Source: Mesorhizobium sp. 131-2-1 (GTDB taxonomy: Bacteria > Pseudomonadota > Alphaproteobacteria > Rhizobiales > Rhizobiaceae). From it: a DNA stretch of 64,000 nucleotides. The stretch is taken from positions 6,572,501 through 6,636,500 of the forward strand of contig NZ_AP023247.1 in assembly GCF_016756535.1 (NCBI RefSeq), given 5' to 3'. The translations under genes were made by a program, and so were the position numbers. The notes under the pieces were generated by a model. It saw only the letters and a program-made list of their open reading frames with translations. It ran no database searches and was not told where the DNA came from. Shown here one piece after another: positions 1 through 22,332 of the stretch; position 1 is the stretch's first letter, and each line of letters begins with the position of its first letter.

Positions 1-1150
1 GAAAATCAATGAACGATTCATCCACGATCAGCCGTCGCCCTCGAGATCCTAGGGCCTCCGCCAGCCATGCCACGTCAGCATGATCAACAAGTCGACCGGT
101 CGGATTGTTTGGATTTACAACGATTGCCGTATCCGCGCCTGTCGCCAGTACGAATTCCAGGAAAGCTCGAACGTCGAGATCGAAATAGGGCGGGGTGAGG
201 ACGAAGTTGTTCTTTTGTTCGTCATCGAGAGGTGTTTGAAAGCCGGCGAACGTCGGCACGGGAATCGCGATTGTTGGGTTCAGCGTTGAATAGAGCGCCT
301 GGATGAGGTCGGTCACCCCGTTTCCGACTGCAATAAAGTCCGGCTGCTGCGAGGTCATCGTGCCAACAACTGAAGCGATATCGATCTGCTGAGAAGGATA
401 GCATGTCAACACGCCTTCGAGCCTCGCCGCCAGCCGATCGTAAAAAGTCTTGGGAGGGAAGCGGGTATTGCAAAGAAGCATGTGCTCGGCGATTGGCTTG
501 CGCCAATAACCTCCGACGCTCGTTTCCAGACGCCGCAGCACGTTCTCCTTGTCACACCGAAATTCCGCGATGGATGCGTCGACACCGTCGCAAATATCGA
601 GCAGCTTGGAGCCGGCAGTCAGCACATTGCCAGGCAACGCTACGTCCAGCTGGGACAGGCCCGCGACTAACCTGCTGAAGGCCTGATGCAGAGATGCCGC
701 GGCGCGGCTTTCGGCCAGAAGATTGCGTAGAACATCAGCACTCAATCGATAAATCCCGGTCGGCGCGTCGGGCCGCCAAGCGGAGCCGCGCAAACCCTTG
801 TTGGTATTGATACCGTCAAGAACCTCACTGTCGAAAAGCGGTGTTCCCCATATCAGGAGAGTATCGCCATCATGTTGGCGGAACTTCTCAATGAGATCGC
901 CGTCATGCGCGTCGTGCCACGAAAGCGTATTTGTGCTGTCCTGCAGGCGGAACCCATCGAATGTGCCGCTACTCAAGTTTTCAACGAGAGTGACATCTTC
1001 AATGCCGTTTTCGACACAGGCGTTGACGAGACGGTCCAAGAGCGGCTGACCGTTGATAGGAACCAACGGTGCATCGTAGCTGCCACTCCACAGATGTATT
1101 TTTGGCCCTGCGAAATCGAGGATAAAAATAGCACGGGTCGTATCGGCCAT
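1..1150 (-). CDS. Nucleotidyltransferase-like domain fused to HisC/CobD-like PLP enzyme (3' end outside window)
   Basis: The frame is open from an ATG at 1150 to the window edge (383 codons seen), with AAAGGAG about 8 bases before the start. Residues 1-110 resemble a sugar-nucleotide transferase fold (LVPINGQPLLDRLV then NGIEDVTLVE), but the usual GxGTRL nucleotide loop is missing. From about residue 205 it is a class I/II aminotransferase of the HisC/CobD type: AVGNGVTDLI near 275, NPNNPTG near 346 and IVDESFIDF near 375; the PLP lysine would lie beyond the edge. Fusions of a nucleotidyltransferase with a PLP decarboxylase or aminotransferase are known in phosphonate pathways (FrbH of FR-900098, PntC-AEPT). 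Its place beside pepM suggests it acts on a CMP-activated amino phosphonate; that is inference. Confidence 0.72.
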   Translation of the reverse strand, partial: MADTTRAIFILDFAGPKIHLWSGSYDAPLVPINGQPLLDRLVNACVENGIEDVTLVENLSSGTFDGFRLQDSTNTLSWHDAHDGDLIEKFRQHDGDTLLIWGTPLFDSEVLDGINTNKGLRGSAWRPDAPTGIYRLSADVLRNLLAESRAAASLHQAFSRLVAGLSQLDVALPGNVLTAGSKLLDICDGVDASIAEFRCDKENVLRRLETSVGGYWRKPIAEHMLLCNTRFPPKTFYDRLAARLEGVLTCYPSQQIDIASVVGTMTSQQPDFIAVGNGVTDLIQALYSTLNPTIAIPVPTFAGFQTPLDDEQKNNFVLTPPYFDLDVRAFLEFVLATGADTAIVVNPNNPTGRLVDHADVAWLAEALGSRGRRLIVDESFIDF

Positions 1151-1316
1151 CTCGGACTCCTTTCTTCTGAAGGAAGCAAAAAGAGCGCGTAGAAGCGCCC
1201 ATTCCCAAAATCAAAACGACCCACTGGCGCTCGAAGTATCCCGTGATGCGTTCATACCGGCGTCATCCGAAGCCTATAGGGGGCTTTGGTTTCGATCGGT
1301 CTCTTCCAGGTGCAAC

Positions 1317-2624
1317 ATGACCCACACCAATCCATCCAGGCCTACCGCTCGTTTTCAGACGCCTGCCTCGATAAAGCCGCGCGCTCCTACGAAAGCGATT
1401 CTGATCCTCATGGACGGCGTAAGCGCGGACTATTTCGAAAAGCACAAACATCGGTTGCCGACGCTTCTTCGTTTGGCAGGAGACGGTCTGTCCATCACTC
1501 GCCTGCGCTCAACGGTGCCGGGAACGTCGATGCCGGGGCGCGCAAGCATGCTAACCGGCGCGGCGCCTCAAGCGAACGGGATCTACGGAAACCACATTGT
1601 GCGAGATGGCTCGTTTGTCTGCGCCGACGCGTCTGATCTGCGGGTTCCGACCATTGCAAAGCTTGCCAAAAATAGCGGGCTTGATGTCGCGTCCATCGGC
1701 GCTGGGTTGATCGACCCAGCCGATTGCGATGTCTTCGTGCCGGCCTGGTGGGAACGAGGGTTTCTCCAGGGAAGCCGGTCATTTAAGAGCCTGCCCGAAA
1801 ACCGCATCGCTCGCTCGCGCATGATCAAAGATCCAAATGGGCGGTTGCGAGCCGCCGGCGTGCTCGATCTCTTCGGCTTCCCGTCCAGTAGCGACACCGT
1901 TGCGAGCACTGCTCTCGTTGCGGGCCTGGCCGCGGATCATCTCATGATCGGGGCTGCAGGAGCGCTGGCTTGCTCGGAGAACCCGCCTGATCTCATTTTG
2001 ACCGAGATCGACATGACGGATTCGATTCAGCATCAGTTCGGATACGAAAGCGAGGCGGCACATTGGTCTATCGCCGCGGCCGACATGATGATTGGCGCTC
2101 TCATCGAAGGACTGAGGCGAGTCGGGCGGAAAGACGATTACGCGATCGTAGTCGCAAGTGACCATGGACATAGCGCCGTCCACACAACCATTTATCCGGA
2201 TGCGATCATCCCTGACTTGCTTTGGGAAAGTGAAGGAGCGACGCTCCATGTCCTGGTTGACGGAGCTCATGACCGCAGAATCGCAGACGGACTGTTGGCG
2301 CGCTTCCAAGTGGAGCCGTGGTCGAGCGACCATGTTCCGGTAAATGAACGCGATTGCATAGCGACCTATGTCGCACCTCCTGGACACTCCTTCGAGGAGA
2401 CCGTTGGAGACACGCAAGAAGCTGGCCCGACGGGCAGACCTCGATACTTGTCCACCCACGGTTTTCGACCGGGCAGCGCGGAGGACGATCGGATATGCCT
2501 GTTGAGCATCCCTGGAATGCAACCTTGCAATATTGCCTGGGGCTCCGCTGAAGAGTTCACGCCAACCATTGCTCAGATCTTGGGATTGTCCGACGCCCCG
2601 TTTTCGGCAAGGGGTCTTCTGTAA
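1317..2624 (+). CDS. Alkaline phosphatase superfamily hydrolase (phosphodiesterase / phosphonoacetate hydrolase-like)
   Basis: 435 residues. The metal-site motifs of the nucleotide pyrophosphatase/PhnA branch are in order: LILMDGVSADYF (first Asp), the nucleophile segment VPGTSMPGRASMLTG, EIDMTDSIQHQFG (Asp and His), VVASDHGHS, and a late STHGFRPG histidine. No signal peptide is evident, so it is probably cytoplasmic. It is the only plus-strand gene of the phosphonate region: it diverges from the fusion gene at 1-1150 and converges on the asparagine synthase gene. It could hydrolyse a phosphonate or phosphodiester intermediate, or release a C-P bond as PhnA does; the substrate cannot be read from sequence. 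A weak AGGTG lies ahead of the ATG. Confidence 0.75.
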   Translation: MTHTNPSRPTARFQTPASIKPRAPTKAILILMDGVSADYFEKHKHRLPTLLRLAGDGLSITRLRSTVPGTSMPGRASMLTGAAPQANGIYGNHIVRDGSFVCADASDLRVPTIAKLAKNSGLDVASIGAGLIDPADCDVFVPAWWERGFLQGSRSFKSLPENRIARSRMIKDPNGRLRAAGVLDLFGFPSSSDTVASTALVAGLAADHLMIGAAGALACSENPPDLILTEIDMTDSIQHQFGYESEAAHWSIAAADMMIGALIEGLRRVGRKDDYAIVVASDHGHSAVHTTIYPDAIIPDLLWESEGATLHVLVDGAHDRRIADGLLARFQVEPWSSDHVPVNERDCIATYVAPPGHSFEETVGDTQEAGPTGRPRYLSTHGFRPGSAEDDRICLLSIPGMQPCNIAWGSAEEFTPTIAQILGLSDAPFSARGLL

Positions 2625-2662
2625 CATGCCCGCAAGCGACCGCCTGCGGGCTCGCATATTCG

Positions 2663-4555
2663 TCATGAGAATACCTCTTTGAAGAATATCCCAAGGTTGG
2701 CCAACAGCCAGAACTTCCGACCAAACGAGTCTGAAGGATTTCGTCGTCCGGCCTCGAACCAACGCCGCAAAGCAGCAGGATCGAACAAATCTCCCAGTGG
2801 AGAGTCCTTATCAAACAGCAGCCTTCGATATTCCGTTGCTCCCTCGCCAACGGCCCACTGACCCAGTGGCAGCGGAAATCCCATCTTTTTGCGAGATAGA
2901 ACAGATCTGGGCAAGACGCTCCGGTATTCCCTTCTTAAGGGGAATTTTGAGACATCGAGACGTTCGCTGAAGGAAGCAACCGGATGCCACAGTGCCTGGA
3001 CCGAAGCGATTGGAGACCTCCACCTCAACCGCTGTGAGCCGGGCATCGCCATTGCGGCGGTAACGAGCTGGTGATCGGTATAAGGAACGCGAGCTTCAAG
3101 CCCAGCTGCCATTGTGGTGTTGTCAACCATTTCCAGCAATGCGGGCAAATGCGTAGAGACGAGAACATATGAGATCTTGCTAAAGAAATCTCCGCCGGCC
3201 TCTGCAAATTGAGTCGAGAAGTGATCGAACAGAGCCATCTCGTGCTCCCTTCGTACCCGCCCATCGATGACAAGCGAGCGGATTTCATCGGTCGGGAAGT
3301 AGCTGTAACGCGCCAGGAAGAACTGCAATTGACTGCCATGGACGTCGAGTCCGAGGCGCCGGCGTGCGACCTGGGCAAGAGCACGTGGTAATGCGGCGAT
3401 GATCTTGCTTCGATTGTAATCATACGGCGTACGGAACAATCGGCTGTAGCCAGCAAAAATCTCATCGGCCCCCTCGCCGGTGAGGACGACCTTATGCTCC
3501 TTCGAAATCGCCTTTGCGAGCGTAAACATTGCGATTTCGTTATGCATCCCAAGCGGATGTCCGCGCAGGCGAACCAGCTCTGACACAGCGTAGATATCGG
3601 AAGGTTCTCCAATTGGGACGACCCGGTGAGTGAGCCCAAATTCTGCGGCGACCTCCATCGCATAGGCCGTCTCGTCATAATCGGCGGTCTCGACCTTGCC
3701 GGTATAGCAGATCGGACGGATTTGGGAGCGGGTGGACGCCTCATAGGCGAGGATGCTCGAGTCAAGTCCACCGGACAACAATGCGGCGACCGGTACGTCA
3801 GACACCAGCTGACGTTCGACGGCGCTTCCAAATAGTCTCCTTATGTCGGAATAGTCCGGCTTCGATCGCGAAATGCGCTCCGACAGATTCCACCAACGTT
3901 CGGACGTGTGTCGCCCGTTCCTTATTGCGAGGAGATGGCCGGGCTCTAACTTGGAGATCCCGGCGAACAGCGTCCTGGCACCGACAACCGCGCGATAGGA
4001 AAGAAAACTGAGCGCGCCGATGATGTCGGGTCCGCGCATGACGCCCGGCCAGCGAATGAGAGCGTTCGGCTGCGACGCAAAGAGAAGGCCAACATCGCAG
4101 ATCGTGTAGTAAAGGGGTTTTACCCCCAAACGATCTCGGGCGATGAGAGCAAGCGAGTTCCGGGGATCGAAAAGCGCGAAGGCAAACATCCCGTCAAGGC
4201 GGTTTAAGAATGACTTTCCCCAAGCAATATAGCTAAGAATTAGAACCTCGGTGTCGGACACCGTCGAAAAGGAAAAACCCATATCCCTCAATTCAGCTCT
4301 AATTTCCCGATAGTTGAATATCTCGCCGTTGTACGTCACCACAACTCCGGTATTGTCATCGCGATAGGGCTGATTGGCGCGAGAATGAGCGTCGACAATC
4401 GATAGCCGTCGATGCGCGAATGCGACCGATTGATCAATGTATAGGCCGCTGGCATCAGGCCCGCGATGAGCGAGAGCCTCAGCGCAACGCTCAACGGCCT
4501 CAGCACAAACGGGTGTTCCCTCGTTTTTGAGGACTATCCCAAAGATTCCGCACAT
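2663..4555 (-). CDS. Asparagine synthase (glutamine-hydrolysing) family protein
   Basis: 630 residues. It starts MCGIFGIV, so Cys2 is the N-terminal nucleophile of the class II glutaminase domain (about 1-210; HRGPDASG, YNGEIFNY and DRLGVKPLYY follow). The synthetase domain carries the pyrophosphate loop ALLSGGLDSS and the LTGEGADEIFAGY segment. The family transfers glutamine ammonia to an AMP-activated carboxylate; members in secondary-metabolite clusters amidate substrates other than aspartate. Here it is the last minus-strand gene of the run beginning with pepM, with 33 bases between it and the methyltransferase gene. A phosphonate bearing a carboxyl group is a plausible substrate; this is inference. 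Confidence 0.85.
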   Translation of the reverse strand: MCGIFGIVLKNEGTPVCAEAVERCAEALAHRGPDASGLYIDQSVAFAHRRLSIVDAHSRANQPYRDDNTGVVVTYNGEIFNYREIRAELRDMGFSFSTVSDTEVLILSYIAWGKSFLNRLDGMFAFALFDPRNSLALIARDRLGVKPLYYTICDVGLLFASQPNALIRWPGVMRGPDIIGALSFLSYRAVVGARTLFAGISKLEPGHLLAIRNGRHTSERWWNLSERISRSKPDYSDIRRLFGSAVERQLVSDVPVAALLSGGLDSSILAYEASTRSQIRPICYTGKVETADYDETAYAMEVAAEFGLTHRVVPIGEPSDIYAVSELVRLRGHPLGMHNEIAMFTLAKAISKEHKVVLTGEGADEIFAGYSRLFRTPYDYNRSKIIAALPRALAQVARRRLGLDVHGSQLQFFLARYSYFPTDEIRSLVIDGRVRREHEMALFDHFSTQFAEAGGDFFSKISYVLVSTHLPALLEMVDNTTMAAGLEARVPYTDHQLVTAAMAMPGSQRLRWRSPIASVQALWHPVASFSERLDVSKFPLRREYRSVLPRSVLSRKKMGFPLPLGQWAVGEGATEYRRLLFDKDSPLGDLFDPAALRRWFEAGRRNPSDSFGRKFWLLANLGIFFKEVFS

Positions 4556-4587
4556 TGGGGTCGCTCTCTTGGCACGAATAACGCCAA

Positions 4588-5502
4588 CTACGTGCTCGGC
4601 TTTTCGCCGATCATCTGGATGCAGCCATCGCCGAACCAGAAGCGGGCCAGCGGGTGGTCATAATGACGGTACATCGGAGCGAGAAAGCGCCGAAGATTAT
4701 GGAAATTTTTTGTATACCTTGAGATCCTGCGGATCTTCTCGAAGCCGCACTCGCCATACCAGCCTCGGATTTGCACCTCTGTGAATGCGAACCCGTGATA
4801 GGTCGGCGCCTGGAAACGATCCCGGATCGTCACGAACAAATCATCGTCAAAAAGACTCCGAAAGAATTCGTTTTCGCCGGGTATATATTCTTTCTCTTCG
4901 CCGTCCTTTATTCGCAACAGCCAGTTGATGGCTTCGCGTGCGGTGGATGCATCCAGATTGTCAATGGAACTGCGGAATTGTTCGTCGCTTTGGTAGAGTT
5001 CTCGCAAGTGATTGATGCATCGGTAAATGACGCCGTTGGCGGTACCCATAATCGTCAAAAAGAAGCTGCCGCCGGGGCGGGTTACACGGGCAAGCTCTTC
5101 AAAGCCTTTTTTCGGATTGCTGGTGTGCGGCAAAACCCCTGCGCAATGGACAAAATCGAAACTGAAGTCGTCAAACGGCAGATCGAGCACACTGCCAGCG
5201 ACCAGTTCCGAGCGCGGCCCAAATCGGCTGAGCCGTTTGCGCGCGCAATCCATCCAATCATTGCTCAATTCAAGCGAAACAACGTTTCGTGCCCCCTTGT
5301 CGAGAAACGCATAGGACGCATTCGCGTTGGAGCCGCAGCCCGCATCCAGGACATCAAGGCCGCGGAAGCTACCGGTTGGCAGGCCGAAATATTCCTCCTC
5401 GATTAGAGAGACCAACCTGTCGAATATGTGGTCATCATTCTCCTGCTGGCGCTGGTAGCGATCAAAGACGGTGCGAGTTTCGACCTCGAAAGAGCTTTCC
5501 AT
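4588..5502 (-). CDS. SAM-dependent class I methyltransferase
   Basis: 304 residues. The Rossmann SAM site VLDAGCGSNANAS is near residue 50, followed by VSLELS, LVAGSVLDLPF, FDFVHCAGVLPH and LARVTRPGG, the standard order of a class I methyltransferase (Methyltransf_11 type). The C-terminal third is helical and aromatic-rich and not recognised. The gene sits between the CDP-alcohol phosphatidyltransferase (30 bases upstream) and asparagine-synthase genes on the same strand, so it is probably co-transcribed. N- or O-methylation of an amino phosphonate or of its lipid conjugate is a reasonable guess, but the acceptor is unknown. Confidence 0.8.
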   Translation of the reverse strand: MESSFEVETRTVFDRYQRQQENDDHIFDRLVSLIEEEYFGLPTGSFRGLDVLDAGCGSNANASYAFLDKGARNVVSLELSNDWMDCARKRLSRFGPRSELVAGSVLDLPFDDFSFDFVHCAGVLPHTSNPKKGFEELARVTRPGGSFFLTIMGTANGVIYRCINHLRELYQSDEQFRSSIDNLDASTAREAINWLLRIKDGEEKEYIPGENEFFRSLFDDDLFVTIRDRFQAPTYHGFAFTEVQIRGWYGECGFEKIRRISRYTKNFHNLRRFLAPMYRHYDHPLARFWFGDGCIQMIGEKPST

Positions 5503-5532
5503 GTATTCTCTTCCCTATGGCTACAAACTGAT

Positions 5533-6132
5533 TCACGCTGTGAGCAAGGCGACAGATCCGGCTGCGGCGAGTGTAAGGTTGCCCAAGCGCAATGCACTGC
5601 CGGTACCCGGAAATTTGAAGTTTGAAAGATGCAGGACCGACAGCACAAACCCTGCACCGATCAATAGGTTGCCCAGGCCTTGCACCGGCAAGTGATGGTC
5701 GGCGACGAAGAGGAACGCCAACACGAAGAGATTATTGTTCAACGGCAATCCTCTGCCGAATCCGTCAGCGTCCAGTCCGAACGTCGAAAAATAGCTGAGG
5801 CGCAGAGCCCCTGACAGGATGAGGCAGTTGGCAGCCAACAATGCGGGAACGGAGAACGCGTTGAAGGACAAAATCAGAACCGCTGGAAAGACGGCTGCGT
5901 AGACCAAATCAAGCAGCCCGTCCAACGCGCCACCCAGCTGTGCCATCAAAGCGGACCGGTTCGGGGAACTCTTCGCGACCATGCCGTCGGCATCATCTGC
6001 CAAAAGAGCCCACAAGCCGAAACAGATGCCAATCTCGAAGCGCCCGATCAAAGCAAAGTAGATCGCCGTGGTGGCCAAGATCAGCCCAAGGGCCGTAATG
6101 GCATTTGCAGCGTCGAACAGATAGCGGATCAT
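5533..6132 (-). CDS. CDP-alcohol phosphatidyltransferase family membrane protein
   Basis: 199 residues, mostly hydrophobic with about five or six membrane segments. The signature of the family is normally DG-x2-AR-x8-G-x3-D-x3-D. Here DADGMVAK is followed by 12 rather than 8 residues and then GGALDGLLD, so the acidic residues are kept, the arginine is lysine and the spacer is longer. The family displaces CMP from a CDP-linked alcohol by an acceptor hydroxyl. Its ATG overlaps the stop of the nucleotidyltransferase gene by four bases, which implies translational coupling and suggests it uses the CMP-activated product of that enzyme, for instance to make a phosphonolipid. Confidence 0.72.
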   Translation of the reverse strand: MIRYLFDAANAITALGLILATTAIYFALIGRFEIGICFGLWALLADDADGMVAKSSPNRSALMAQLGGALDGLLDLVYAAVFPAVLILSFNAFSVPALLAANCLILSGALRLSYFSTFGLDADGFGRGLPLNNNLFVLAFLFVADHHLPVQGLGNLLIGAGFVLSVLHLSNFKFPGTGSALRLGNLTLAAAGSVALLTA

Positions 6133-6947
6133 CCTCCTACCCCCGCCACGGCGGCCGGCGCGTCGGCACTATGTCTGTGAGGTCGCTCGAAGGCGAAAAT
6201 CCTTTCCGCTACCCGCAGGTCCTGTTCACTGTCGATCTCGTACCATCGCAAATCGTCACATCGCGCCGCGGCGAGTTGCAGTCCGCGCTGCTCGATGAGA
6301 TGCGCGAGCAGCTCCTCGCTATAGGCTTTGATTGCGCCCGAGCCGATCAGGTCGTGGAGGACCGGGACGATCGCCGTTTGGAGTTCGGCGCCAGAGAACC
6401 GGATGAGGTTCATCATCTTGAAGAGCACCGGGGTGCCTGATACCAGATTTGCCGCCGTTTGCTTCAACCGGACTTCGGATATGAAGCCGTTGCTGGAAAG
6501 GACGACCGCGGACCCTTCCATGGATGGATCGAAGGGCGCGACCGCGGCGGCATTGGCCGCCTCCACCCTGATCAGGTGGCGCAGCGCATCTTCTTCAAAG
6601 AAGACGTCACCTTCGAGGAGATAACAGTCGCCGGAAAGAAGCGTGTCGCGTGCCAGCCAGAGCGAGTAGGCGCTCCCTGTCTTGTCGAAGACCGAGGACT
6701 CGACATAGTTGATTTCAAGTCTACCGAAGCGTTCGCCACAGGCATGGCGAATGGCATCCTTGCGATAGCCGACAACAATCGTCACCTCTTCAACTCCCAC
6801 CGTCTGAAGGTTCCACAGTGCATTGTAAAGTATCGGTGTGCCGTTGACTTCGACGAGGGGCTTGGGACACAGATCGGTCAGCGGACGCAGGCGGGAGCCG
6901 AAGCCGGCAGCGAGAATGACGGCTTTCCTGGGAGCAGCGGGAGGCAT
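6129..6947 (-). CDS. NTP transferase, probably a CTP:phosphonate (2-AEP/phosphocholine-like) cytidylyltransferase
   Basis: About 272 residues from the ATG at 6947, which has GAGGTG six bases upstream; a GTG at 6956 is a less likely start because it overlaps that site. AVILAAGFGSRLRPLT is the nucleotide-binding loop, CPKPLVEVNG the conserved lysine region, and EGDVFF the metal-binding aspartate. The combination with DKTGSAYSLWLA resembles LicC/PntC-type cytidylyltransferases more than sugar-1-phosphate enzymes. Lying between the aminotransferase and the CDP-alcohol transferase of a pepM cluster, it most likely activates a phosphonate with CTP. The choice of phosphonate is inferred. Confidence 0.75.
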   Translation of the reverse strand: MPPAAPRKAVILAAGFGSRLRPLTDLCPKPLVEVNGTPILYNALWNLQTVGVEEVTIVVGYRKDAIRHACGERFGRLEINYVESSVFDKTGSAYSLWLARDTLLSGDCYLLEGDVFFEEDALRHLIRVEAANAAAVAPFDPSMEGSAVVLSSNGFISEVRLKQTAANLVSGTPVLFKMMNLIRFSGAELQTAIVPVLHDLIGSGAIKAYSEELLAHLIEQRGLQLAAARCDDLRWYEIDSEQDLRVAERIFAFERPHRHSADAPAAVAGVGG

Positions 6948-6977
6948 CTCATTCACCTCTTTCGTTGTGTTGCGGTG

Positions 6978-8168
6978 TCATTTCCAGGAGTTGAGGAATT
7001 CGACGAGCCGGGCCAGGCCGGTCGCGAGTTTTTCAGATGGAATTCCATAGGACAGGCGCAGGCCGGCGGGGTCACCGAACGCGGCGCCCGACACAGCTGC
7101 GACGCCAGTTTCGGCAAGCAGTGCCGTCACGATATCGTCGGCTGTCGTTGAGGCGCCGTCTTCCGATGCCGATCGCAGCAGATGGGAAAGGTCGAGATAG
7201 AAATAGAAGCCGCCTTGCGCCCTGGGGACCGGTACACGCGTCAACCAAGCAAGCACGTCAAGACCGATCCGTCTGGCGCTTGTGAGGCGTGAACGCAGCT
7301 TGCCTTCATAGTCCGAGCCACCCCTTTGCAAATGGGCGAGCACCGCGTGCTGGGCAATTACGTTTGGATTCGAAGTGGTGTGCGATTGCAGCGCGTTGAC
7401 GGCATTGATCACCTCTTTTGGACCCGCCAGATAGCCGATGCGCCAGCCGGTCAATGCCAGCGATTTGCTGAAGGAGCTGACGATCAGCGCGCGTGCTCGA
7501 ATTTCGGGGGCGACCGAGACGATCGGATGGTGGGTATGATCCTCATGCACGAAGTCGCCATAGCACTCGTCGAAAATGATCCACAGGTTGTGGCTGACCG
7601 CCAGTTGAGCGATGGCCATCAGGGTCTCAACATCGTAGACCGCACCGGCCGGATTGCTGGGCGTGTTGACGACGATCGCCCGCGTTCGTTCGGTGACCGC
7701 CTCCTTGATGTGCTCGGGGCGCGGGACGTAACCATTGGATTTGGTGTCGACGAAGACCGGTGTCCCGCCGGCGATTAGCACCTGGGCCGGAAACGTTGTC
7801 CAGTAAGGCGCCGGGATGATGACCTCGTCGCCCGGGTTCAGCAGCACCATTGCGGCATTGAACAAGGCCTGCTTCGCTCCGGACGTCACGGCAACTTCCT
7901 CGGCCTTCCAGATCTGTCCGGTATCGAGGGAGATCTTCCGCGCCAGTGCCTCGCGCAGCTCCACCATGCCAACCGTATCGGTATAGCGATTGACGCCCTT
8001 ATTGATGGCGTCGATCGCGCCGTCGCGAATCGTGGGAGCAAGCTCGCTCCAGATCTCGCCGGCGGTCAGATCGATGATCTCCTTGCCAGCATCGGCCGCC
8101 GCTTTTGCGGCAGCGCGCGCCGCGGCGGTACCCGATGTACCGAACAGGTTTGTCCGATGCGCAAGCAT
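6978..8168 (-). CDS. Class I PLP aminotransferase (aspartate aminotransferase Ib-like)
   Basis: 396 residues. AVTSGAKQALFNA, the APYWTTFP loop, NTPSNPAGAVY, IIFDECYGDF and the PLP lysine segment SSFSKSLALTGWR (K235) are all present, as is the late arginine in LRLSYGIP. This subgroup normally transaminates aspartate with 2-oxoglutarate. It follows pepM by 44 bases on the same strand, and phosphonopyruvate is a structural analogue of oxaloacetate, so it could convert phosphonopyruvate to phosphonoalanine. No phosphonopyruvate decarboxylase is seen in the window, which makes this draining reaction more plausible. A role in ordinary amino-acid metabolism cannot be excluded. Confidence 0.82.
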   Translation of the reverse strand: MLAHRTNLFGTSGTAAARAAAKAAADAGKEIIDLTAGEIWSELAPTIRDGAIDAINKGVNRYTDTVGMVELREALARKISLDTGQIWKAEEVAVTSGAKQALFNAAMVLLNPGDEVIIPAPYWTTFPAQVLIAGGTPVFVDTKSNGYVPRPEHIKEAVTERTRAIVVNTPSNPAGAVYDVETLMAIAQLAVSHNLWIIFDECYGDFVHEDHTHHPIVSVAPEIRARALIVSSFSKSLALTGWRIGYLAGPKEVINAVNALQSHTTSNPNVIAQHAVLAHLQRGGSDYEGKLRSRLTSARRIGLDVLAWLTRVPVPRAQGGFYFYLDLSHLLRSASEDGASTTADDIVTALLAETGVAAVSGAAFGDPAGLRLSYGIPSEKLATGLARLVEFLNSWK

Positions 8169-8212
8169 GTGCGCTCCCGTTTTCGTTTGCTTTCAAAGAC
8201 GGGCTGGGCCTG

Positions 8213-9121
8213 CTACCGCACGCCGGTCGCCGTCTGCGGCAGATATTTCTCTTCCGCCGCTGAGAGTTCCTGGTAATTGAGCAGATCGAAGAGTTCGTCG
8301 AGCGTCGCCACCTCGTCCTCGATACCGGCGGTACTTTCTTCGCGGAGGATGCGGTCGCAGACCTGGCGCATGGCCGAGATCGCCGCGCGCATGTTGTGGT
8401 TCGCCCATATGACCGTGGAGATTCCGGCCGCCCGATACGCGGAGACCGGTGTGCGGTAATATTTCGTAGGCACGATCACGACCGGAAGGCGGTTCTGCCA
8501 GGCGCGCGTGAAGGCGAAAATCTGCTCAGCGTTGGACTTGCGGGAATGAATCAGAATAGCATCGGCGCCGGCCTCAGCGTAGGCTTGTGCTCGCGCCAGC
8601 GCCTCATCCTCTCCGCGGCCGGCGATGAGCGCCTCGATCCGGGCGACCAGAACGAACTCCGCATCCGGCACTTGGTCCTTCACCGCCTTAAGCCGGCCGC
8701 AGAACTCGGGAATATCGGCCAACGGGTGCCGATCACCGATGAACGAGTTCATTTTCGGGAACGCCGTGTCCTCGATACATATGCCGCTCGCGCCATGTTG
8801 GCGCAGCTTGCGGGCGACCAAACGGGCATTGTTGAAGTTCCCGAACCCGCTGTCCCCGTCGACGAGGACTGGAATGTCCACCGTGTCGGAAATTCGCTCA
8901 ACGACATCGACGAGTTGGGACCAGGAAGCTTCGTTCGCATCTCGATATCCGAGACTGGATGAAATCGAGAGGCCGGACGCCCAGAGCGCCTTGAAGCCAG
9001 CGCGCTCGGCAATCGCCGCCGAAAGGCCGTCATGAGCCTCCATTGCGAAGGCGAGTTCACTGGACGCGATCATTCGGCGCAAGCTCTCTCGCGTCTGCGC
9101 ACCAGACTGCCTCTCCACCAT
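8213..9121 (-). CDS. pepM: Phosphoenolpyruvate mutase (phosphonopyruvate synthase)
   Basis: 302 residues of the PEP mutase/isocitrate lyase superfamily. WASGLSISSSLGYRDANEASW matches the PEP mutase N-terminal signature, and VDGDSGFGN (D88, D90) gives the metal ligands. The gating loop is IEDTAFPKMNSF: the mutase hallmark EDK-x5-NS is kept except that Lys is Thr119, while K123, N125 and S126 (equivalent to the catalytic Lys and Asn) remain, as does R161. The enzyme makes the C-P bond of phosphonopyruvate and commits carbon to phosphonates. GGAGGTGA precedes the ATG. It heads the minus-strand cluster and has a NifA/sigma-54 type promoter about 130 bases upstream. Confidence 0.88.
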   Translation of the reverse strand: MVERQSGAQTRESLRRMIASSELAFAMEAHDGLSAAIAERAGFKALWASGLSISSSLGYRDANEASWSQLVDVVERISDTVDIPVLVDGDSGFGNFNNARLVARKLRQHGASGICIEDTAFPKMNSFIGDRHPLADIPEFCGRLKAVKDQVPDAEFVLVARIEALIAGRGEDEALARAQAYAEAGADAILIHSRKSNAEQIFAFTRAWQNRLPVVIVPTKYYRTPVSAYRAAGISTVIWANHNMRAAISAMRQVCDRILREESTAGIEDEVATLDELFDLLNYQELSAAEEKYLPQTATGVR

Positions 9122-9255
9122 ACGGTCTCACCTCCACCGACGCTGTCCAGCCGACAAGCCTGTCATCGCTGCCGACGAAGTACTTTCAGAGGCGAACCGC
9201 TCTGCCCACCGATCGGCGATCTGCCACTGTCGTGCACACGTACAGAATCAATGAA

Positions 9256-9270
9256 GCAAGGCGCGTGCCG
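9256..9270 (-). promoter_or_regulatory. Sigma-54 (-24/-12) promoter of the pepM cluster
   Basis: Reading the minus strand, CGGCACGCGCCTTGC has GG and GC separated by exactly ten bases and matches the TGGCACG-N4-TTGCW consensus except for the first base. It points toward pepM, whose ATG is about 135 bases downstream, and lies 66 bases from a NifA site. It should be read by RpoN with NifA. Confidence 0.7.
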
Positions 9271-9335: not shown

Positions 9336-9351
9336 TGTCGGGCTTCCGACA
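9336..9351. promoter_or_regulatory. NifA upstream activator sequence (pepM)
   Basis: TGTCGGGCTTCCGACA is a perfect TGT-N10-ACA site with a palindromic core. It lies 66 bases upstream of the minus-strand -24/-12 element. A second, imperfect half (CGTCCAACTTCGGACA) follows directly, the same arrangement as upstream of prxS. Confidence 0.72.
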
Positions 9352-9632: not shown

Positions 9633-10676
9633 CTAACCAAGCGACTTGTTGATCGATGGGATGATCTTGTCTCCCCAGAGCTCAATCTGGCGTAGCATCG
9701 TCTTTTGGTCGAAATCTCCCAATTGGGTCTGAATTGCGATCTGGTCCGGCTTCAGGATACTTATCTCTTCCAGCAGGCGATCGATGACGCGACTTACGCT
9801 GCCGATCGGCAGGTTCTGGCGCATGGTCTCGAACGACAGATCCTGCTGCGTCGGTGTTTCCTGCAGCAGATAGCCGTCCCGGCTCTGCTGGCGGCGCTGA
9901 TGAAGTGCTTCAGATAGCCGGCGCTGGAAGCGGGCGTTGTCGAGATAGCTGTCGATCTCCGCCTGATCGTCGCTGGCATAGCAGCAGCGCAGAAGCCCTA
10001 TCTTGGCGGCGGTGACATCCTTACCCCGCGAGGCCGCTGCTGCCTCGATGGTCTCACGCAGCGTTCTTAAGTTTTCCAAGCCGTTGTGGAACGCCGTGAC
10101 GAAAAGATTGTGGCCCTCACGATAGGCCCGGCACATGCTTCGCGCGGACCCGCAGGCGATCCAGATCGGTGGGGCTGGCCTTTGGATGGTGCGCAGCGAA
10201 ATCGCCGTTAAAGGTATCTTCTCATACTGGCCATTGTGCTCGAAGACCTTCTGGTTAAGGCCCTTGAGAAGGATATCCAGGTATTCCGCAAACACGGCCG
10301 GCGCCTGATCGACATCGACGCCGAAGCGCTCGAACTCGAACTGCTGGTATCCCGAGCCGACGCCGAGTTCGAGGCGGCCGTTCGAAACGATCTCGGCAAA
10401 GCCGATCTCGGAGAGCAGGCGCTGCGGTTGATATAGCGGCAGCACACACACACCGGTGCCAAGGCGAATGGTGCTCGTAAGGCCAGCACAGTGCGCCACC
10501 ATCATCAAGGGCGAGGGAACCAGGCTGTAATTGTTGAAGTGGTGCTCGGCGAACCAAGCGGTGTTGAAGCCAGCCTGCTCCGAAGCGATTGTCTGTTCAA
10601 TGGAGTTACCTATGACGCTGTCGCACGATTGATGATAGCCTCGCTGGGCCGCCAAGATGAACGTCGCGAATTCCAT
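9633..10676 (-). CDS. LLM-class (luciferase-like) flavin-dependent monooxygenase, y4vJ-like
   Basis: 347 residues from the ATG at 10676, which has GAGGGA eight bases upstream; a longer frame to 10790 lacks homology at its N-terminus. MEFATFILAAQRG, AEHHFNNYSLVPSP, RLGTGVCVLPLYQP and ELGVGSGYQQFEFERFG are typical of the bacterial luciferase alpha/beta family, which use reduced FMN and oxygen. It is the last gene of the P450 cluster and matches the position and type of y4vJ in NGR234. It would need a separate flavin reductase, not found here. The substrate is unknown. Confidence 0.82.
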   Translation of the reverse strand: MEFATFILAAQRGYHQSCDSVIGNSIEQTIASEQAGFNTAWFAEHHFNNYSLVPSPLMMVAHCAGLTSTIRLGTGVCVLPLYQPQRLLSEIGFAEIVSNGRLELGVGSGYQQFEFERFGVDVDQAPAVFAEYLDILLKGLNQKVFEHNGQYEKIPLTAISLRTIQRPAPPIWIACGSARSMCRAYREGHNLFVTAFHNGLENLRTLRETIEAAAASRGKDVTAAKIGLLRCCYASDDQAEIDSYLDNARFQRRLSEALHQRRQQSRDGYLLQETPTQQDLSFETMRQNLPIGSVSRVIDRLLEEISILKPDQIAIQTQLGDFDQKTMLRQIELWGDKIIPSINKSLG

Positions 10677-10926
10677 GGCGTGTCCCTCGTTTACACAAAG
10701 TGGCCAATCAAGCCTTCGACTTGTGCCGATTGCGGGTGGGTCGCGGTATCGATGCGGCCTGGCGACGACGTAGTCGACGATCTTGCGCAAAGCCGCTTAT
10801 CGTTCGGCGGCCGCAGGCAAGCGCCAAAACCTGGCTAGTCATTCGACCCTGATGACGAGTTTTCCGTCACCGATGAAGACGATCACTTGGCAAGCCGCGC
10901 TTGGCACGTTCCATGCAGCCGCAGTC

Positions 10927-12567
10927 TCAATCCTCGAACCTCGTCGGCTTCGACGAACCGCAACCCGTCGCCGGCGAACATTCCGTTGGATTTTCTTGAT
11001 CGGTTGGCTGGGCGTTTCGCGCGTCAGCCAACGAGGTCAAGCCGCCGTCCACGTAGAGGGTCGAGCCGTTTACGTATGAGGCATCAGGCGAGGCCAGAAA
11101 GAACACTGCCTCGGCGACGTCTTCGGGCTCTCCCATCCGCCCCATCGGGATGCGCCGTTTGATCGCTACGGAATCGATGCAGCCGGACTCGACCAACTGA
11201 GCAATGTCAGGCGTACGGATATAGCCAAGAGCGACGGTGGCCGTTCGGATGCCGACCGACCCGAGTTCGGCCGCCATGCACCGGGTCAGAATGTTCATAC
11301 CCGCCCTGGACGCCCCATAGGCATGGCGCGCCACGAAGGGCAGGAAACTATTGATCGATCCAAGATTGAGGATTACGCCGCCGGCGTCCATCGACTTGAT
11401 CGCCTCGCGCGCGCAGGTGAAGGTGCCGGTGAGATTGACGTCCAGCACCCGCTCGATCTGTTGCGGGATTTCGATCCCTCGCACAAACGTATCGGCAATA
11501 GCAGCACAGTTGACGAGGACCTCGATGCGACCGAAGCGCCCCCGTATTTCCTCGAACAGCGCCACCACGTCGCTCTCGACCGCCAAGTCGACGGATTTCG
11601 CCACGTGCCTGCCGCCCAGCAAATCAGCGAGTTCTGCCGCCCCAGCACCATCTTTATCAGCAATCACGACTGTGTCGGAGTTCGCGGCAAAGCGGCGAAC
11701 GACGGCGGCGCCTATACCGTTCGCGCCGCCCGTCACGACCACTGTGCGCGCGCCAGTTCGTTCGGCCGGCCGGAAGAGTTCGGCTCGAGGCGTCTCGTCG
11801 ACCGGCGGGTGCGCGTCGCCCGGCTGGTTGAACGACATCCAACCGCCGTCGACCGTCAGCACCGATCCTGTGATGTAGCCCGTCTGTGCGCTGGCCAAAA
11901 AACGCACGGCCCGAGCGATCTCGTCGGGGCGCGCCATTCGCCCCATGGGCACGCGGCGGCGCACGGCCGCGAGGTCCATCTTGCCCGCACGTTCCAGTTC
12001 CGCCACCATCGGCGTGCGCACGTATCCTGGCGCTACCGCCGTTACGCGGATGCCGCGCGAGGCCCACTCGCATGCAAGCGATCTCGTGAGAGCGATCAAG
12101 CCTGCCTTCGAGCTGGCATAGGCGTTGCGCTTGGGATTGCCGAGCACGCCCGCCAGCGAAGCGACGTTGACAATGGCAGCGCCGGGCTGCATGCGCCTCG
12201 CCGCTTCGCCGGCCATGATGAAAGGCCCGATCAGATTTGTTGCCAGCACGCGTCGGAAGGCCTCGAAACCGGTGTCGATAGTCGCAGCCATGGCGGGTCC
12301 TATCGCCGCGTTGTTGACGAGAACATCGATTTTCGCGAACTGCGCTTCGATGCGGCCGTATAGGGCGACAATGTCCTCTTCTCGTGAGACATCGCATTCG
12401 AGGCCCAGATGCGGATGGCCGAGACCGCCGGCCAGTTCAAGAACGCCGCTGCCAGGAAGGTCCACCGCAACGACGATGTCTCCATCGGCGGCAACGATCT
12501 CGACCAGCGCACGGCCGATTCCGCCTGCCGCTCCCGTTATGATGACGACCCGTCCTGCCTGCTTCAT
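10927..12567 (-). CDS. Tandem two-domain short-chain dehydrogenase/reductase, y4vI-like
   Basis: 546 residues containing two complete SDR domains. The first has the cofactor loop ITGAAGGIG near residue 10, NNAAIGP, YASSKAG catalytic Tyr/Lys and GGWMSF at its end. The second begins with VTGGANGIGAAVV near residue 270 and has YGASRAG in place of YxxxK, so its catalytic lysine is arginine. Each domain ends in VDGG. NGR234 y4vI is a similar fused SDR. The start at 12567 has GAGAGG ahead of it. Two oxidoreductions on one small molecule, perhaps an alcohol made by the P450, is a fair inference. Confidence 0.85.
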   Translation of the reverse strand: MKQAGRVVIITGAAGGIGRALVEIVAADGDIVVAVDLPGSGVLELAGGLGHPHLGLECDVSREEDIVALYGRIEAQFAKIDVLVNNAAIGPAMAATIDTGFEAFRRVLATNLIGPFIMAGEAARRMQPGAAIVNVASLAGVLGNPKRNAYASSKAGLIALTRSLACEWASRGIRVTAVAPGYVRTPMVAELERAGKMDLAAVRRRVPMGRMARPDEIARAVRFLASAQTGYITGSVLTVDGGWMSFNQPGDAHPPVDETPRAELFRPAERTGARTVVVTGGANGIGAAVVRRFAANSDTVVIADKDGAGAAELADLLGGRHVAKSVDLAVESDVVALFEEIRGRFGRIEVLVNCAAIADTFVRGIEIPQQIERVLDVNLTGTFTCAREAIKSMDAGGVILNLGSINSFLPFVARHAYGASRAGMNILTRCMAAELGSVGIRTATVALGYIRTPDIAQLVESGCIDSVAIKRRIPMGRMGEPEDVAEAVFFLASPDASYVNGSTLYVDGGLTSLADARNAQPTDQENPTECSPATGCGSSKPTRFED

Positions 12568-12750
12568 ATGAACCTCTCCGCAGCCAGCGTCAGAGATATC
12601 GACGCGAGTCAGCCGCAAGACCGGTCGCGGACGTCCTGGTGACGGCGAGTTTCCATACCGGGTAGACGTGTTGCGTTCCGCGACCGCTCCCGCGACGCGG
12701 CTCCGCAATTGGGAGCCTTGGAAAGCATTGTGGTGACATGCATGGCATTT

Positions 12751-13290
12751 TCATTTTGATGACGAGCTGCGGCGCTTCCTGAGCGCGTAAACCGGGTCAT
12801 TGGGATGCGCTGCTCCGATCGGTTGCCGCAAGCCGAACCGTTCTGCCTCGGGGACCGCTGGTGGGGTCTGCTCTTCGAGCCAATCGTAAACGACGGTCCG
12901 TTCGGCAATGCGCCACGCCCCTTCCCTCTTCTGAAAAAGATCGCAGTAACGGCCGCAGAGAAGCACCTGGCGTGCTTCTCCGTCATTGTCTGGTCCGCGT
13001 TGCAGCGCGGTGAAATAGCTTTCGACCACGGCCTCCGACGGGTCGATGAATTCGATCAAGACGTTCGTGATCTGGTGGATTAAGCGCGGTCCGGTTTTGA
13101 AGAGACCAAGCGCAAACTCAAAGAAGCCCTCGGCTGAGCCGCGATAGGCACCGTGATTGTCATGCGCATCGGGCCAATATGCACTGCGCAGCGCAGCCTC
13201 ATCCGCGCGGTCTATGCCGCGGCAGTACCGATAAAGGCAGTCGCGGATCGCCTCGCGGTCGCGCAGTTCGGTGATTTTTGCCTGGCCCAT
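12751..13290 (-). CDS. SnoaL-like (NTF2-fold) protein of the P450 cluster
   Basis: 179 residues from the ATG at 13290. [23 protein letters not shown], then [21 protein letters not shown] and [13 protein letters not shown] follow the pattern of the SnoaL_4 group, close to the small subunits of ring-hydroxylating dioxygenases and to scytalone-dehydratase-like lyases. The acidic and histidine residues (D, H in DAHDNHG) could be catalytic. The gene lies between the tandem SDR and ferredoxin genes on the same strand, so it is probably part of the same pathway as a dehydratase or isomerase. Confidence 0.78.
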
Positions 13291-13501
13291 CGCTCTGTCG
13301 CAAATTTGAGATTGGAAGAGGCGTTTCGTGCCTCTAGGTGCGTGCAAGGTCGAACCGATCGGCAACTGAAGAAGCCAGAACGGAGACGAACTTCACGTGT
13401 CGCGTGCGTGTCATTGAGGTCTCGATGCCGGAGAGGAGGTTGGCAGGGAAGCGGCCGGACATCTTGCTTTGCGGTGTGGGGCCACGTCTCGTCGATTCCA
13501 C

Positions 13502-13747
13502 CTAAGCTTCCCCAGTTCTTGGTTGCATGGCGGCTGGTTCGAACCGCGCTGCCGAGGTGCGATCGACTTCCAGCGCACGTTCGGGGCAGGATCGCGCGCC
13601 TTGTGACGCAAGCAGTTGCTCCCCCTCCGCAACCTGAATGTCACCGGGCAGGATGTAGCCATCGTCATCAAGCTTGAAGATGTCCGGCGCTTGCGCCCAG
13701 CATCGCGCGTGCCCCTGGCATTTGGCATTGTGGACGATAATGCGCAT
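13502..13747 (-). CDS. 3Fe-4S/4Fe-4S single-cluster ferredoxin (P450 redox partner)
   Basis: 81 residues; GGAGG lies eight bases before the ATG at 13747. The cluster ligands are C10-x2-H13-x2-C16 and C54-P, the CxxHxxC...CP pattern of 3Fe-4S ferredoxins that serve cytochromes P450 in actinobacteria and rhizobia. It is 38 bases downstream of the P450 gene on the same strand. It should pass electrons from a ferredoxin reductase, not present in the window, to the P450. Confidence 0.85.
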   Translation of the reverse strand: MRIIVHNAKCQGHARCWAQAPDIFKLDDDGYILPGDIQVAEGEQLLASQGARSCPERALEVDRTSAARFEPAAMQPRTGEA

Positions 13748-13785
13748 AGCGCTGCCTCCATTGTCTTGGCATGGCTCGGCGATGG

Positions 13786-15003
13786 TCATGACCAGTCCAG
13801 GATCAGATTTTCGATCCCGAACACATGGCCGCCACAGGTGATGGGCGCTGTACCCTCCTTGATCCGGAAGGTCGGTATGCGCGCCAGCCATTCCTCCAGG
13901 CCAATGACAATCTCGCGCCGGGCAAGGTGTGAGCCAAGGCAACGGTGGGGACCATAGCCAAAGGCGGCGTGGCGGTTGTGATCTCGCGCCAGATCGACCG
14001 TGTTGGGGGATTCGAATTCCTCCGGGTCGCGATTTGCAATCATCGTGGCGCACGAAACATAGTCCCCCTTTCGGATCGGCGCGCCTTCGAAGTCGATATC
14101 TTTCGTAGCCACGCGGATCAACTGAATGGGCGGATAGGCCCGCAGCAACTCTTCGGTTGCGAGCAGGATGCGGGCCGGTTCGCTGCGCAGCAGTTCCTGA
14201 TCCTTGAGGTTGCGCGCTAGATAAGCCAGGTCAAAGCCAATAGCTGCTGCGACAGTGTCAAGTCCCGCGACGAACACAAGCACGCCGATGCCACGGATCT
14301 CCCCGTCGGTTAGCCGGCGGCCCTCGATCTGTGCCTGCACGATGAAGGTCATGAGATCGTCGACCGGATCCTTGCGGCGATTGGTTGCAAGTTCATCGAT
14401 GAAAGCCACAATCTTGCGGGCAGCCACAGGTCGTTCCACATCGTCGCCGTGGAGCAGATCTTTCGCCCAGCCGACAAATGTATCGAGTCCCTGATCCGGC
14501 AACCCCAGAAACCGAAGGAAGATGCTGACAGTGAACGGAAAGGCAAAATCCTTCATGACGTCGCAGCTCGTGGCCGATGCGGTGATCCGGTCGATCAGGG
14601 CTATCGCTCGCTCACGGACAGCCGGTTCCAGTGCCGTCACCCGCTTGGGCGAAAGCAGCGGACTGAGCAGTGAGCGAAATGCGCCATGGGCCGGTGGATC
14701 GAGCTCAAGCGGGATCGTCGGCCAGGTTTCGCCCAGTATGGAGGAGAAGATGCTGCGATGGCTGGAAAAAGTTTCAGTGTCCTGCAGCACCTTACGCTGA
14801 TCTGCGGCGCGGGTGATGACCCAGGTGCCCCGGCCATCTTGCGTGTTGTAGGGGGAATAGAAGATCGGAGGCCCGTCATGGGCGCAAGCGACGGCTGCGT
14901 GTGGATCCCCGTTGGGCGTTGGTGGCATGCCTGGCGATGTGAACAGGCTGAAGTCTCTCACCATTTCGGGCGGGACATGATCTGGGACCGGGTTGATCGC
15001 CAT
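13786..15003 (-). CDS. Cytochrome P450, CYP127A (y4vG) type
   Basis: 405 residues. The heme-binding loop FGYGPHRCLGSHLARR (Cys proximal ligand), the I-helix VAGLDT oxygen-activation motif and EELLR (ExxR) are all present, giving an intact soluble bacterial P450. AGGAG precedes the ATG at 15003. It is the first gene of the cluster P450-ferredoxin-SnoaL-tandem SDR-flavin monooxygenase and corresponds by gene order to y4vG (CYP127A1) of NGR234. Symbiosis-linked P450 operons in rhizobia make terpenoid-like products in some cases, but no terpene cyclase is seen here, so degradation of a plant compound is equally possible. Confidence 0.88.
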   Translation of the reverse strand: MAINPVPDHVPPEMVRDFSLFTSPGMPPTPNGDPHAAVACAHDGPPIFYSPYNTQDGRGTWVITRAADQRKVLQDTETFSSHRSIFSSILGETWPTIPLELDPPAHGAFRSLLSPLLSPKRVTALEPAVRERAIALIDRITASATSCDVMKDFAFPFTVSIFLRFLGLPDQGLDTFVGWAKDLLHGDDVERPVAARKIVAFIDELATNRRKDPVDDLMTFIVQAQIEGRRLTDGEIRGIGVLVFVAGLDTVAAAIGFDLAYLARNLKDQELLRSEPARILLATEELLRAYPPIQLIRVATKDIDFEGAPIRKGDYVSCATMIANRDPEEFESPNTVDLARDHNRHAAFGYGPHRCLGSHLARREIVIGLEEWLARIPTFRIKEGTAPITCGGHVFGIENLILDWS

Positions 15004-22242: not shown

Positions 22243-22332
22243 GTTGCTTTCTTTCCTTCGTTCCATCGATCGCGATGTCACCCGCGAGATGAATATCGGC
22301 CGCGGGCACGCGCTGCCCTACGGGGAGAGAAC

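Follow-up and report, generated by a model that had tools for sequence, protein, structure and literature searches.

A pepM gene cluster of Mesorhizobium that may make and retrieve a phosphonate rhizopine

We analysed a window of 64,000 nucleotides (G000:C1:6572501-6636500, the whole stretch of DNA) from the 7.1 Mb genome of Mesorhizobium sp. 131-2-1. It carries a gene cluster around pepM, which encodes phosphoenolpyruvate (PEP) mutase. The reading that we lean to, with modest confidence, is that bacteroids make a phosphonate ester and that kin recover it. Such a make-and-retrieve system would be a phosphonate rhizopine. The known rhizopines (mos/moc) are made in the nodule under symbiotic control. 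Their uptake and breakdown genes lie on the symbiotic element, and their synthesis is dispensable for fixation. The pepM cluster fits this pattern because in strain R7A its genes are expressed in nodules and its mutants are Fix+, because it has an importer of the phosphate-ester type and a phosphodiesterase, and because breakdown genes occur on symbiotic elements of relatives.

The proposed route is as follows. NifA and sigma-54 would switch on pepM in the nodule; the direct promoter is our prediction, and the expression is published for strain R7A of M. loti. PepM would convert PEP to phosphonopyruvate, and an enzyme like aspartate aminotransferase (AspAT) would pull this on to phosphonoalanine, as their families suggest. 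A LicC/PntC-like enzyme may then form the cytidine monophosphate (CMP) derivative. From it, a CDP-alcohol-transferase-like protein would place the phosphonate onto an alcohol, giving the ester. A methyltransferase, an AsnB protein and a CobD-like fusion protein could tailor this ester before its export from the bacteroid. Free-living kin would import it through the linked AccA-family ATP-binding cassette (ABC) importer, and the phosphodiesterase would cleave it. Finally, a phosphonopyruvate hydrolase with its aminotransferase, or a linked C-P (carbon-phosphorus) lyase, would free phosphate and carbon; this last linkage is seen in relatives.

Breakdown and uptake genes linked to pepM

The initial annotation, made from the letters of the window alone, proposed a search of the pepM neighbourhoods in Mesorhizobium. 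This search found pepM linked to importers and to breakdown genes. Many relatives have a second PEP-mutase-like gene near pepM, a phosphonopyruvate hydrolase. The hydrolase copies show TS instead of NS in the motif (8/8), and four of five score over 374.4 for TIGR02321 (L066, with 358.9, is under it). An aminotransferase gene adjoins the hydrolase gene, in several relatives together with a LysR regulator. Of the 146 genus genomes, 26 have the hydrolase, and 24 of these also hold pepM, against 17 of the 120 others (Fisher p 2e-14 with relatedness ignored; p values exaggerate the association, because the rows share ancestry and some genomes are counted twice, a point against our reading). In 23 of the 24 genomes the two genes share a contig at a distance of 5-25 kb (median 15 kb), and in one they are on different contigs. 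Two genomes, G103 and G143, have the hydrolase without pepM, as would be expected of users that are not makers. PepM and the hydrolase in one cell would run a futile cycle. Therefore, their linkage is sensible if making and eating differ in time or in cell.

The same association is found on plasmids, where the counts are lower bounds because they cover 60 of 82 pepM records (E<=1e-70) and 60 of 202 PhnI records. Of 35 records with the hydrolase, at least 14 carry pepM too, at a distance of 7-34 kb. Likewise, at least 7 of the 9 closest PhnI records, a close-knit group, hold pepM at 9-45 kb. In Rhizobium gallicum, Sinorhizobium meliloti M270, S. mexicanum and the genome G024, the core is instead accompanied by C-P lyase genes and PhnF, together with a phosphodiesterase and an importer of the Opp type. 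The genome G027 carries another phnJ copy at about 21 kb from pepM.

The DNA to the left of position 1, which the initial annotation had also proposed to inspect, holds the rest of the fusion gene. The whole gene encodes 568 amino acids (L005:8444-10150, minus strand). Further left lie a DeoR regulator and an ABC importer of the Opp type, made up of a binding protein, two ATPases and two permeases. The best PDB match of the binding protein is AccA (268 bits, E 1e-78), and the next family reaches 91 bits. The nearest of the 15 other family-5 binding proteins in this genome scores 111 bits, compared with 1192 for the self-match. The AccA residues Asn54, Tyr375, Tyr376 and Ser419 contact phosphate, according to the available text of PMC4526662. 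In pairwise alignment they are kept as N56, Y372, Y373 and S415, and they are kept also in the R. gallicum protein; most of the sugar contacts differ. In the multiple alignment, Asn54 falls on isoleucine in this genome's protein and the other three contacts hold. All 24 cluster-linked binding proteins (near-duplicates included) conserve Tyr376 and Ser419. Tyr375 is tyrosine in 20 of them and tryptophan in four. The Tyr-Tyr-Ser set is found in none of the 15 other family-5 proteins. The importer is related in sequence to AccA, and its changed pyranose-side contacts make a different ligand likely. An AccA-type binding protein is present in the fetched stretch of 16 of 26 genomes with pepM. In S. 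meliloti pCpl and R. indigoferae, the ABC importers beside the core carry a sugar-type annotation instead. Other PF01663 proteins adjoin importers in relatives.

The initial annotation expected a membrane phosphonolipid or phosphonoglycan. For this product, the CDP-alcohol enzyme would place the phosphonate of CMP-phosphonate on diacylglycerol or on a bacteroid surface sugar. The PntC-type activation is published mainly for surface tailoring, as far as the available text of PMC6697681 goes. The CDP-alcohol-transferase-like protein is nearest to phosphatidylserine and archaetidylserine synthase models, although under their cut-offs (best TIGR04217 with 48.1 bits and TIGR00473 with 42.5). An MsbA-like ABC protein of the window, probably ExsA, would also suit this product, its gene being NifA2-dependent in R7A. 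However, the recurrent neighbours of the core in relatives are an importer (AccA-family in many), a phosphodiesterase and phosphonate breakdown genes, and so a diffusible, re-imported compound is the better fit. Furthermore, a Pfam scan of the genes in the cluster and its left flank found no glycosyltransferase family, and pepM and asnB mutants of R7A are fully Fix+. We rate a surface product as unlikely.

From the rhizopine reading, a wider proposal can be drawn, which we hold tentatively. A family of phosphonate rhizopines would reside on symbiosis islands and Sym plasmids. Its members would be strain-specific C-P compounds that bacteroids make from plant-fed carbon and phosphorus, with NifA as the controlling factor in Mesorhizobium. 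Their use would be restricted to kin that have the matching importer and phosphodiesterase together with either the hydrolase or C-P lyase. The futile pair of PepM and hydrolase would be separated by nodule-only and free-living expression.

Nodule expression and the pepM promoter

The initial annotation suspected expression in bacteroids, and this had been published for the R7A version of the cluster (Sullivan, Brown and Ronson 2013, PMC3538637; statements from this source refer to its available text). In 14-day nodules, lacZ fusions gave 827 units for pepM (msi327), 2456 for aatA (msi326) and 862 for asnB (msi323). The values fell to 7.7, 16.2 and 22.0 in a nifA2 mutant, and were under 20 Miller units in broth. 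Mutants of the three genes were fully effective (Fix+). The string "phosphon" is absent from that text, where the three genes are listed as lacking NifA/RpoN promoters.

We scanned the 10 cluster and importer genes for an upstream activator sequence (UAS) of NifA paired with a sigma-54 element. The pair occurs only before pepM. The activator TGTCGGAAGCCCGACA precedes CGGCACGCGCCTTGCT by 65 bp, and the latter begins 149 bp ahead of the pepM start. With up to two mismatches, and with GA allowed at -12, the pair precedes 30 of 114 pepM genes, 25 of 1176 control open reading frame (ORF) starts and none of 8 hydrolase genes. GA was admitted post hoc, after PMC3538637 and the L086 upstream had shown A at this position in M. 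loti nifH-type promoters. The first scan, which required GC, found the pair in 22 of 122 upstreams (the 122 include 8 hydrolase copies) and in 18 of 1176 controls. It used the pepM matches that start by residue 30 and reach residue 250. The comparison is conservative, since the control starts include genuine nif promoters and maybe pepM with another start.

The sigma-54 elements before pepM in Mesorhizobium are of three types: the Lotus type, the TGGCATGG type and a nifH-like type. In the Lotus clade, the element is identical in 15 of 15 distinct upstreams. The nifH-like elements stand behind four different activator sequences. In two loci (L086 and L161, the latter of M. albiziae) the element is exactly TGGCACGAGTTTTGAA, as at M. 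loti nifH. The simplest reading of these sequences is that NifA-type promoters were repeatedly recruited before pepM in Mesorhizobium. CJ3sym (L093), which we take to carry the R7A island, also has the pair before pepM, and the nifH-type promoter of msi321-320 is located there between the fusion gene and PhnF. The msi321-320 cluster is present in R7A and not in MAFF303099 (PMC3538637). The window contains exact copies of the R7A NifA promoter elements of the P450, nifS, fixA and nifB operons, as listed in that source. Five further Rhizobium and Sinorhizobium upstreams showed no pair when scanned.

Two other readings of the expression and uptake data were weighed. According to the first, the product is a phosphonate antibiotic, a toxic ester that competitors import through AccA-type transporters, as with agrocin 84. 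The linked breakdown genes would then be a self-protection. AccA takes up agrocinopine and agrocin 84 alike (PMC4526662, available text), and the antibacterial phosphonoalamides begin with an AspAT-like transamination of phosphonopyruvate (PMC11867202, available text). Against this, the breakdown routes to phosphate linked in relatives look nutritional, the genes scanned include no ATP-grasp ligase, and expression in R7A is very low in broth and high in nodules. We consider an antibiotic improbable. According to the second, the compound is directed at the plant as a signal or serves the bacteroid for storing phosphorus, and the neighbouring importer has nothing to do with it. The NifA2-dependent expression in the nodule would suit it, as would the absence of the hydrolase and of a linked C-P lyase in this genome. 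Nevertheless, the mutants are Fix+. The close spacing of pepM and hydrolase, together with the variety of importer types found next to this core, speaks for uptake as a component of the system. We rate this as the least probable of the readings considered.

Several observations weigh against the phosphonate rhizopine itself. Concerning the compound, the literature examined reports no phosphonate from nodules, and the cluster shows no dedicated exporter. Most of the sugar contacts of AccA are changed in the binding protein (N284, E510, T430 and E434 to W, P, M and I), and the fetched loci of 10 of 26 pepM genomes contain no AccA-type binding protein. At E<=1e-95, phosphonopyruvate hydrolase found no match in the window genome. 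The only C-P lyase of this genome, like its phosphonatase, lies megabases from the cluster, so the full kit is unlinked, and only the importer, the DeoR regulator and the phosphodiesterase are linked here. A C-P lyase occurs in 47 of 47 pepM genomes tested, and its presence alone is uninformative. Clusters with both a CobD-like enzyme and the hydrolase (L060, L063/L064, L059/L176) conflict with a simple aminoethylphosphonate product; the hydrolase is not expected to act on aminoethylphosphonate. Concerning regulation, the authors of PMC3538637 judged direct activation by NifA highly unlikely. In 7 of the 15 distinct Lotus-clade upstreams, the last three bases of the UAS are ACC instead of ACA. 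All promoter-positive rows are Mesorhizobium, with many near-duplicates, and no pair was found among the Bradyrhizobium loci scanned or in 12 loci of Rhizobium, Sinorhizobium, Agrobacterium and Xaviernesmea. Moreover, nifH was not seen in 4 of the 41 pepM genomes.

If the phosphonate rhizopine is real, it would explain strongly nodule-induced genes that have no effect on fixation. It would also extend the rhizopine and opine idea to phosphorus and point to a natural source of phosphonates in soil. We found no prior statement of this idea in a literature search with subscription journals mostly outside its scope, and term searches of PMC7643969 and PMC4999443 returned no mention.

Enzymes, distribution and neighbouring genes

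The cluster is real. All the genes named by the initial annotation are present as intact frames in ORF and family-model scans, and the run from pepM to AsnB is collinear. On the minus strand the order is pepM, aminotransferase, nucleotidyltransferase, CDP-alcohol-transferase-like gene, methyltransferase and AsnB, with gaps of 44, 21, -4, 30 and 32 bases (Table 1). The placement in a nitrogen-fixation region also stands, with nifH (G000:C1:6558104-6558928) at 22.6 kb from pepM.

Table 1. Features of the pepM cluster and its promoter; positions are those of the window
Feature	Position	Strand	Evidence
pepM, phosphoenolpyruvate mutase	8213..9121	-	TIGR02320 score; motif EDTAFPKMNS
AspAT-like aminotransferase (aatA), proposed phosphonopyruvate transaminase	6978..8168	-	family match; motif SFSKS
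LicC/PntC-like nucleotidyltransferase, proposed CTP:phosphonate cytidylyltransferase	6129..6956	-	1jyk and 6pd1 matches; motifs AGFGSRLRPLTDLCPK, EGDV
CDP-alcohol phosphatidyltransferase-like protein, divergent	5533..6132	-	4-base overlap with nucleotidyltransferase gene; model scores under cut-off
Class I S-adenosylmethionine methyltransferase, tailoring	4588..5502	-	family models
AsnB-type glutamine-dependent amidotransferase	2663..4555	-	MCGIFG start; SGGLDSS motif
Alkaline-phosphatase-superfamily phosphodiesterase (PF01663), proposed hydrolase of imported phosphonate ester	1317..2624	+	Pfam; TIGR02335 PhnA only partial
Fusion gene, 5' part: nucleotidyltransferase-like N-terminal part and CobD-like pyridoxal phosphate domain	1..1150	-	continues left of the window
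NifA upstream activator TGT-N10-ACA, TGTCGGAAGCCCGACA, dyad, before pepM	9336..9351	-	sequence scan
Sigma-54 -24/-12 element CGGCACGCGCCTTGCT, one mismatch to TGGCAC-N5-TTGCW	9255..9270	-	sequence scan

PepM was named as the start of the pathway, and its score agrees (358.7 bits for TIGR02320, cut-off 319.55). The phosphonopyruvate hydrolase, PrpB and other listed models stay under their cut-offs, and the best solved relative is the PEP mutase 1m1b (E 6e-102). The protein differs by one letter (EDT for EDK) from the motif EDKXXXXXNS, the PEP mutase filter in the available text of Rice 2019 (PMC6697681). We compared 117 pepM copies of at least 60% identity, with some genomes counted twice. They have EDK in 59, EDS in 34, EDT in 23 and QDS in one; the lysine at position 7 and NS are kept in 117/117. 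A survey with this filter would miss 58 of the 117 copies.

The aminotransferase beside pepM belongs to the AspAT superfamily, like PnaA, and its role on phosphonopyruvate is a proposal from sequence. Its SFSKS motif presumably holds the pyridoxal phosphate lysine. The initial annotation allowed for transamination without a decarboxylase, and this is supported; such a route is already published for PnaA (PMC11867202, available text). No phosphonopyruvate decarboxylase was visible in the cluster, and nothing in this genome exceeds the TIGR03297 cut-off, which is weak evidence as the same model reached it in 0 of 14 control genomes.

Activation by a nucleotide (CMP) is supported as well, by a logic published for PntC (PMC6697681, available text). 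The nucleotidyltransferase matches the CTP:phosphocholine cytidylyltransferase 1jyk with E 1e-14, and 6pd1, a nucleotidyl transferase/aminotransferase, with E 2e-8. We take 6pd1 to be the T. denticola PntC fusion. The loop of the enzyme is intact and its gene lies inside the pepM cluster, as for PntC-type activation, and specificity for CTP and phosphonate is predicted. The CDP-alcohol-transferase-like protein has no match in a Pfam scan. It contains the motif DDADGMVAK-x12-GGALDGLLD, with a spacer that we assume to be longer than in the canonical CDP-alcohol transferase motif.

The fusion of a nucleotidyltransferase with a pyridoxal phosphate enzyme was borne out in its C-terminal part. This part is CobD-like, and its nearest solved relative is 6oux, threonine phosphate decarboxylase-like (E 1e-33). 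By eye, the N-terminal part looks like a degenerate nucleotidyltransferase; it has no family match. We draw no conclusion from the predicted structure (13 sequences), with a mean pLDDT of 49.2 and residues 1-256 below 50. That the CobD-like domain is a phosphonoalanine decarboxylase is treated as no more than an option, since clusters with phosphonopyruvate hydrolase contain CobD-like genes as well.

The cluster is not a chance reading, since pepM is present in 41 of 146 genus genomes (E<=1e-60; best E under 1e-136 in all) and the annotated record of Mesorhizobium sp. 131-3-5 has the same genes beside nif genes. nifH occurs in 37 of the 41 genomes with pepM and in 63 of the 105 without it. A search of 144 genomes found the fusion gene in 19; in 14 of these, identity across its length is at least 82%. 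The core order of pepM, aminotransferase, nucleotidyltransferase and CDP-alcohol-transferase-like gene recurs with varying flanks in many fetched loci. The core, or part of it, is carried by Sym and accessory plasmids of Rhizobium, Sinorhizobium and Mesorhizobium and by Ti plasmids of Agrobacterium. S. garamanticum has a near-complete set: phosphodiesterase, DeoR, importer, fusion-like aminotransferase, AsnB, methyltransferase, CDP-alcohol-transferase-like protein, pepM, aminotransferase and nucleotidyltransferase. The core is often missing or scattered in Bradyrhizobium loci.

Some loci show particular arrangements. Besides the pepM-aminotransferase-nucleotidyltransferase core, one Agrobacterium Ti plasmid (L168) has a CDP-alcohol transferase of 400 amino acids, an ABC importer and a gene with the annotation 3-phosphoglycerate dehydrogenase. 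A phosphonate link of the Ti plasmid cores to opine biology is possible. A fusion paralogue, 82% identical (L056, G087:C2), lies on another contig than pepM (C1), with no pepM match in its 20-kb stretch. The locus L058/L184 (G032:C41) has a CobD-like/fusion gene, nucleotidyltransferase- and CDP-alcohol-transferase-like genes, DeoR and an AccA-type importer, in a genome with no pepM at E<=1e-60. Four loci (L172, L129, L076 and L077) contain an additional pepM-like gene, whole or in fragments, at a distance of about 3-5 kb from the first copy.

Directly upstream of pepM, the window has a P450-ferredoxin-NTF2-SDR-LLM set (9633-15003, minus strand). A NifA/sigma-54 pair (TGTCATGTCCGGGACA, TGGCACGACTTTTGAA) stands before the P450 gene, in the same direction as pepM. 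The set recurs near pepM in R. gallicum (L169), S. mexicanum (L209) and, with no annotated ferredoxin, R. leguminosarum Vaf10 (L210). In M. albiziae (L161) and R. mayense (L140), the LLM and SDR genes of the set are near pepM. The MsbA-like protein mentioned above is of the ABC exporter type (20308-22281, minus strand) and might export the product. From its synteny with 131-3-5 and R7A, the gene is probably exsA, which depends on NifA2 in R7A (PMC3538637). A group II intron reverse transcriptase (L004:10155-11669) lies between the importer operon and nifH.

Comparison with known systems

A linkage of uptake and breakdown genes to synthesis, as in rhizopine systems, is seen around pepM in many relatives; in the window genome, it is limited to the importer, the regulator and the phosphodiesterase. 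The named rhizopine is an inositol derivative, and its chemistry and moc genes are given in the available text of PMC3538637. In contrast, a C-P bond is predicted here, and the gene families are others.

The agrocinopine acc operon of Ti plasmids (AccR, AccA-E, AccF, AccG; PMC4526662, available text) is similar in its DeoR-family regulator, AccA-family binding protein, two ATPases, two permeases and separate phosphodiesterase. However, the phosphodiesterase is here of the PF01663 alkaline phosphatase superfamily, and most of the AccA sugar contacts are lost. Moreover, the bacterium itself would make the compound, whereas in the acc system it is made by plant transferred DNA (T-DNA).

The PepM-PntC tailoring clusters (Rice 2019, PMC6697681, available text) likewise combine PepM, a nucleotidyltransferase and a transferase. 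The cluster described here differs in that no decarboxylase is seen, the importer is linked, breakdown genes are linked in relatives, and the motif has EDT and not EDK.

In the phosphonoalamide route with PnaA and PnaD (PMC11867202, available text), PepM is also followed by an AspAT-like transaminase. The differences are the nucleotidyltransferase of the present cluster and the absence of ATP-grasp peptide ligases among the genes scanned. Finally, the phosphonoalanine catabolism of Variovorax sp. Pal2 resembles the relatives, where the hydrolase lies beside an aminotransferase and a LysR regulator. The Pal2 genes are, we believe, those named PalA/PalB. Unlike in Pal2, the hydrolase of these relatives adjoins the maker of its own substrate.

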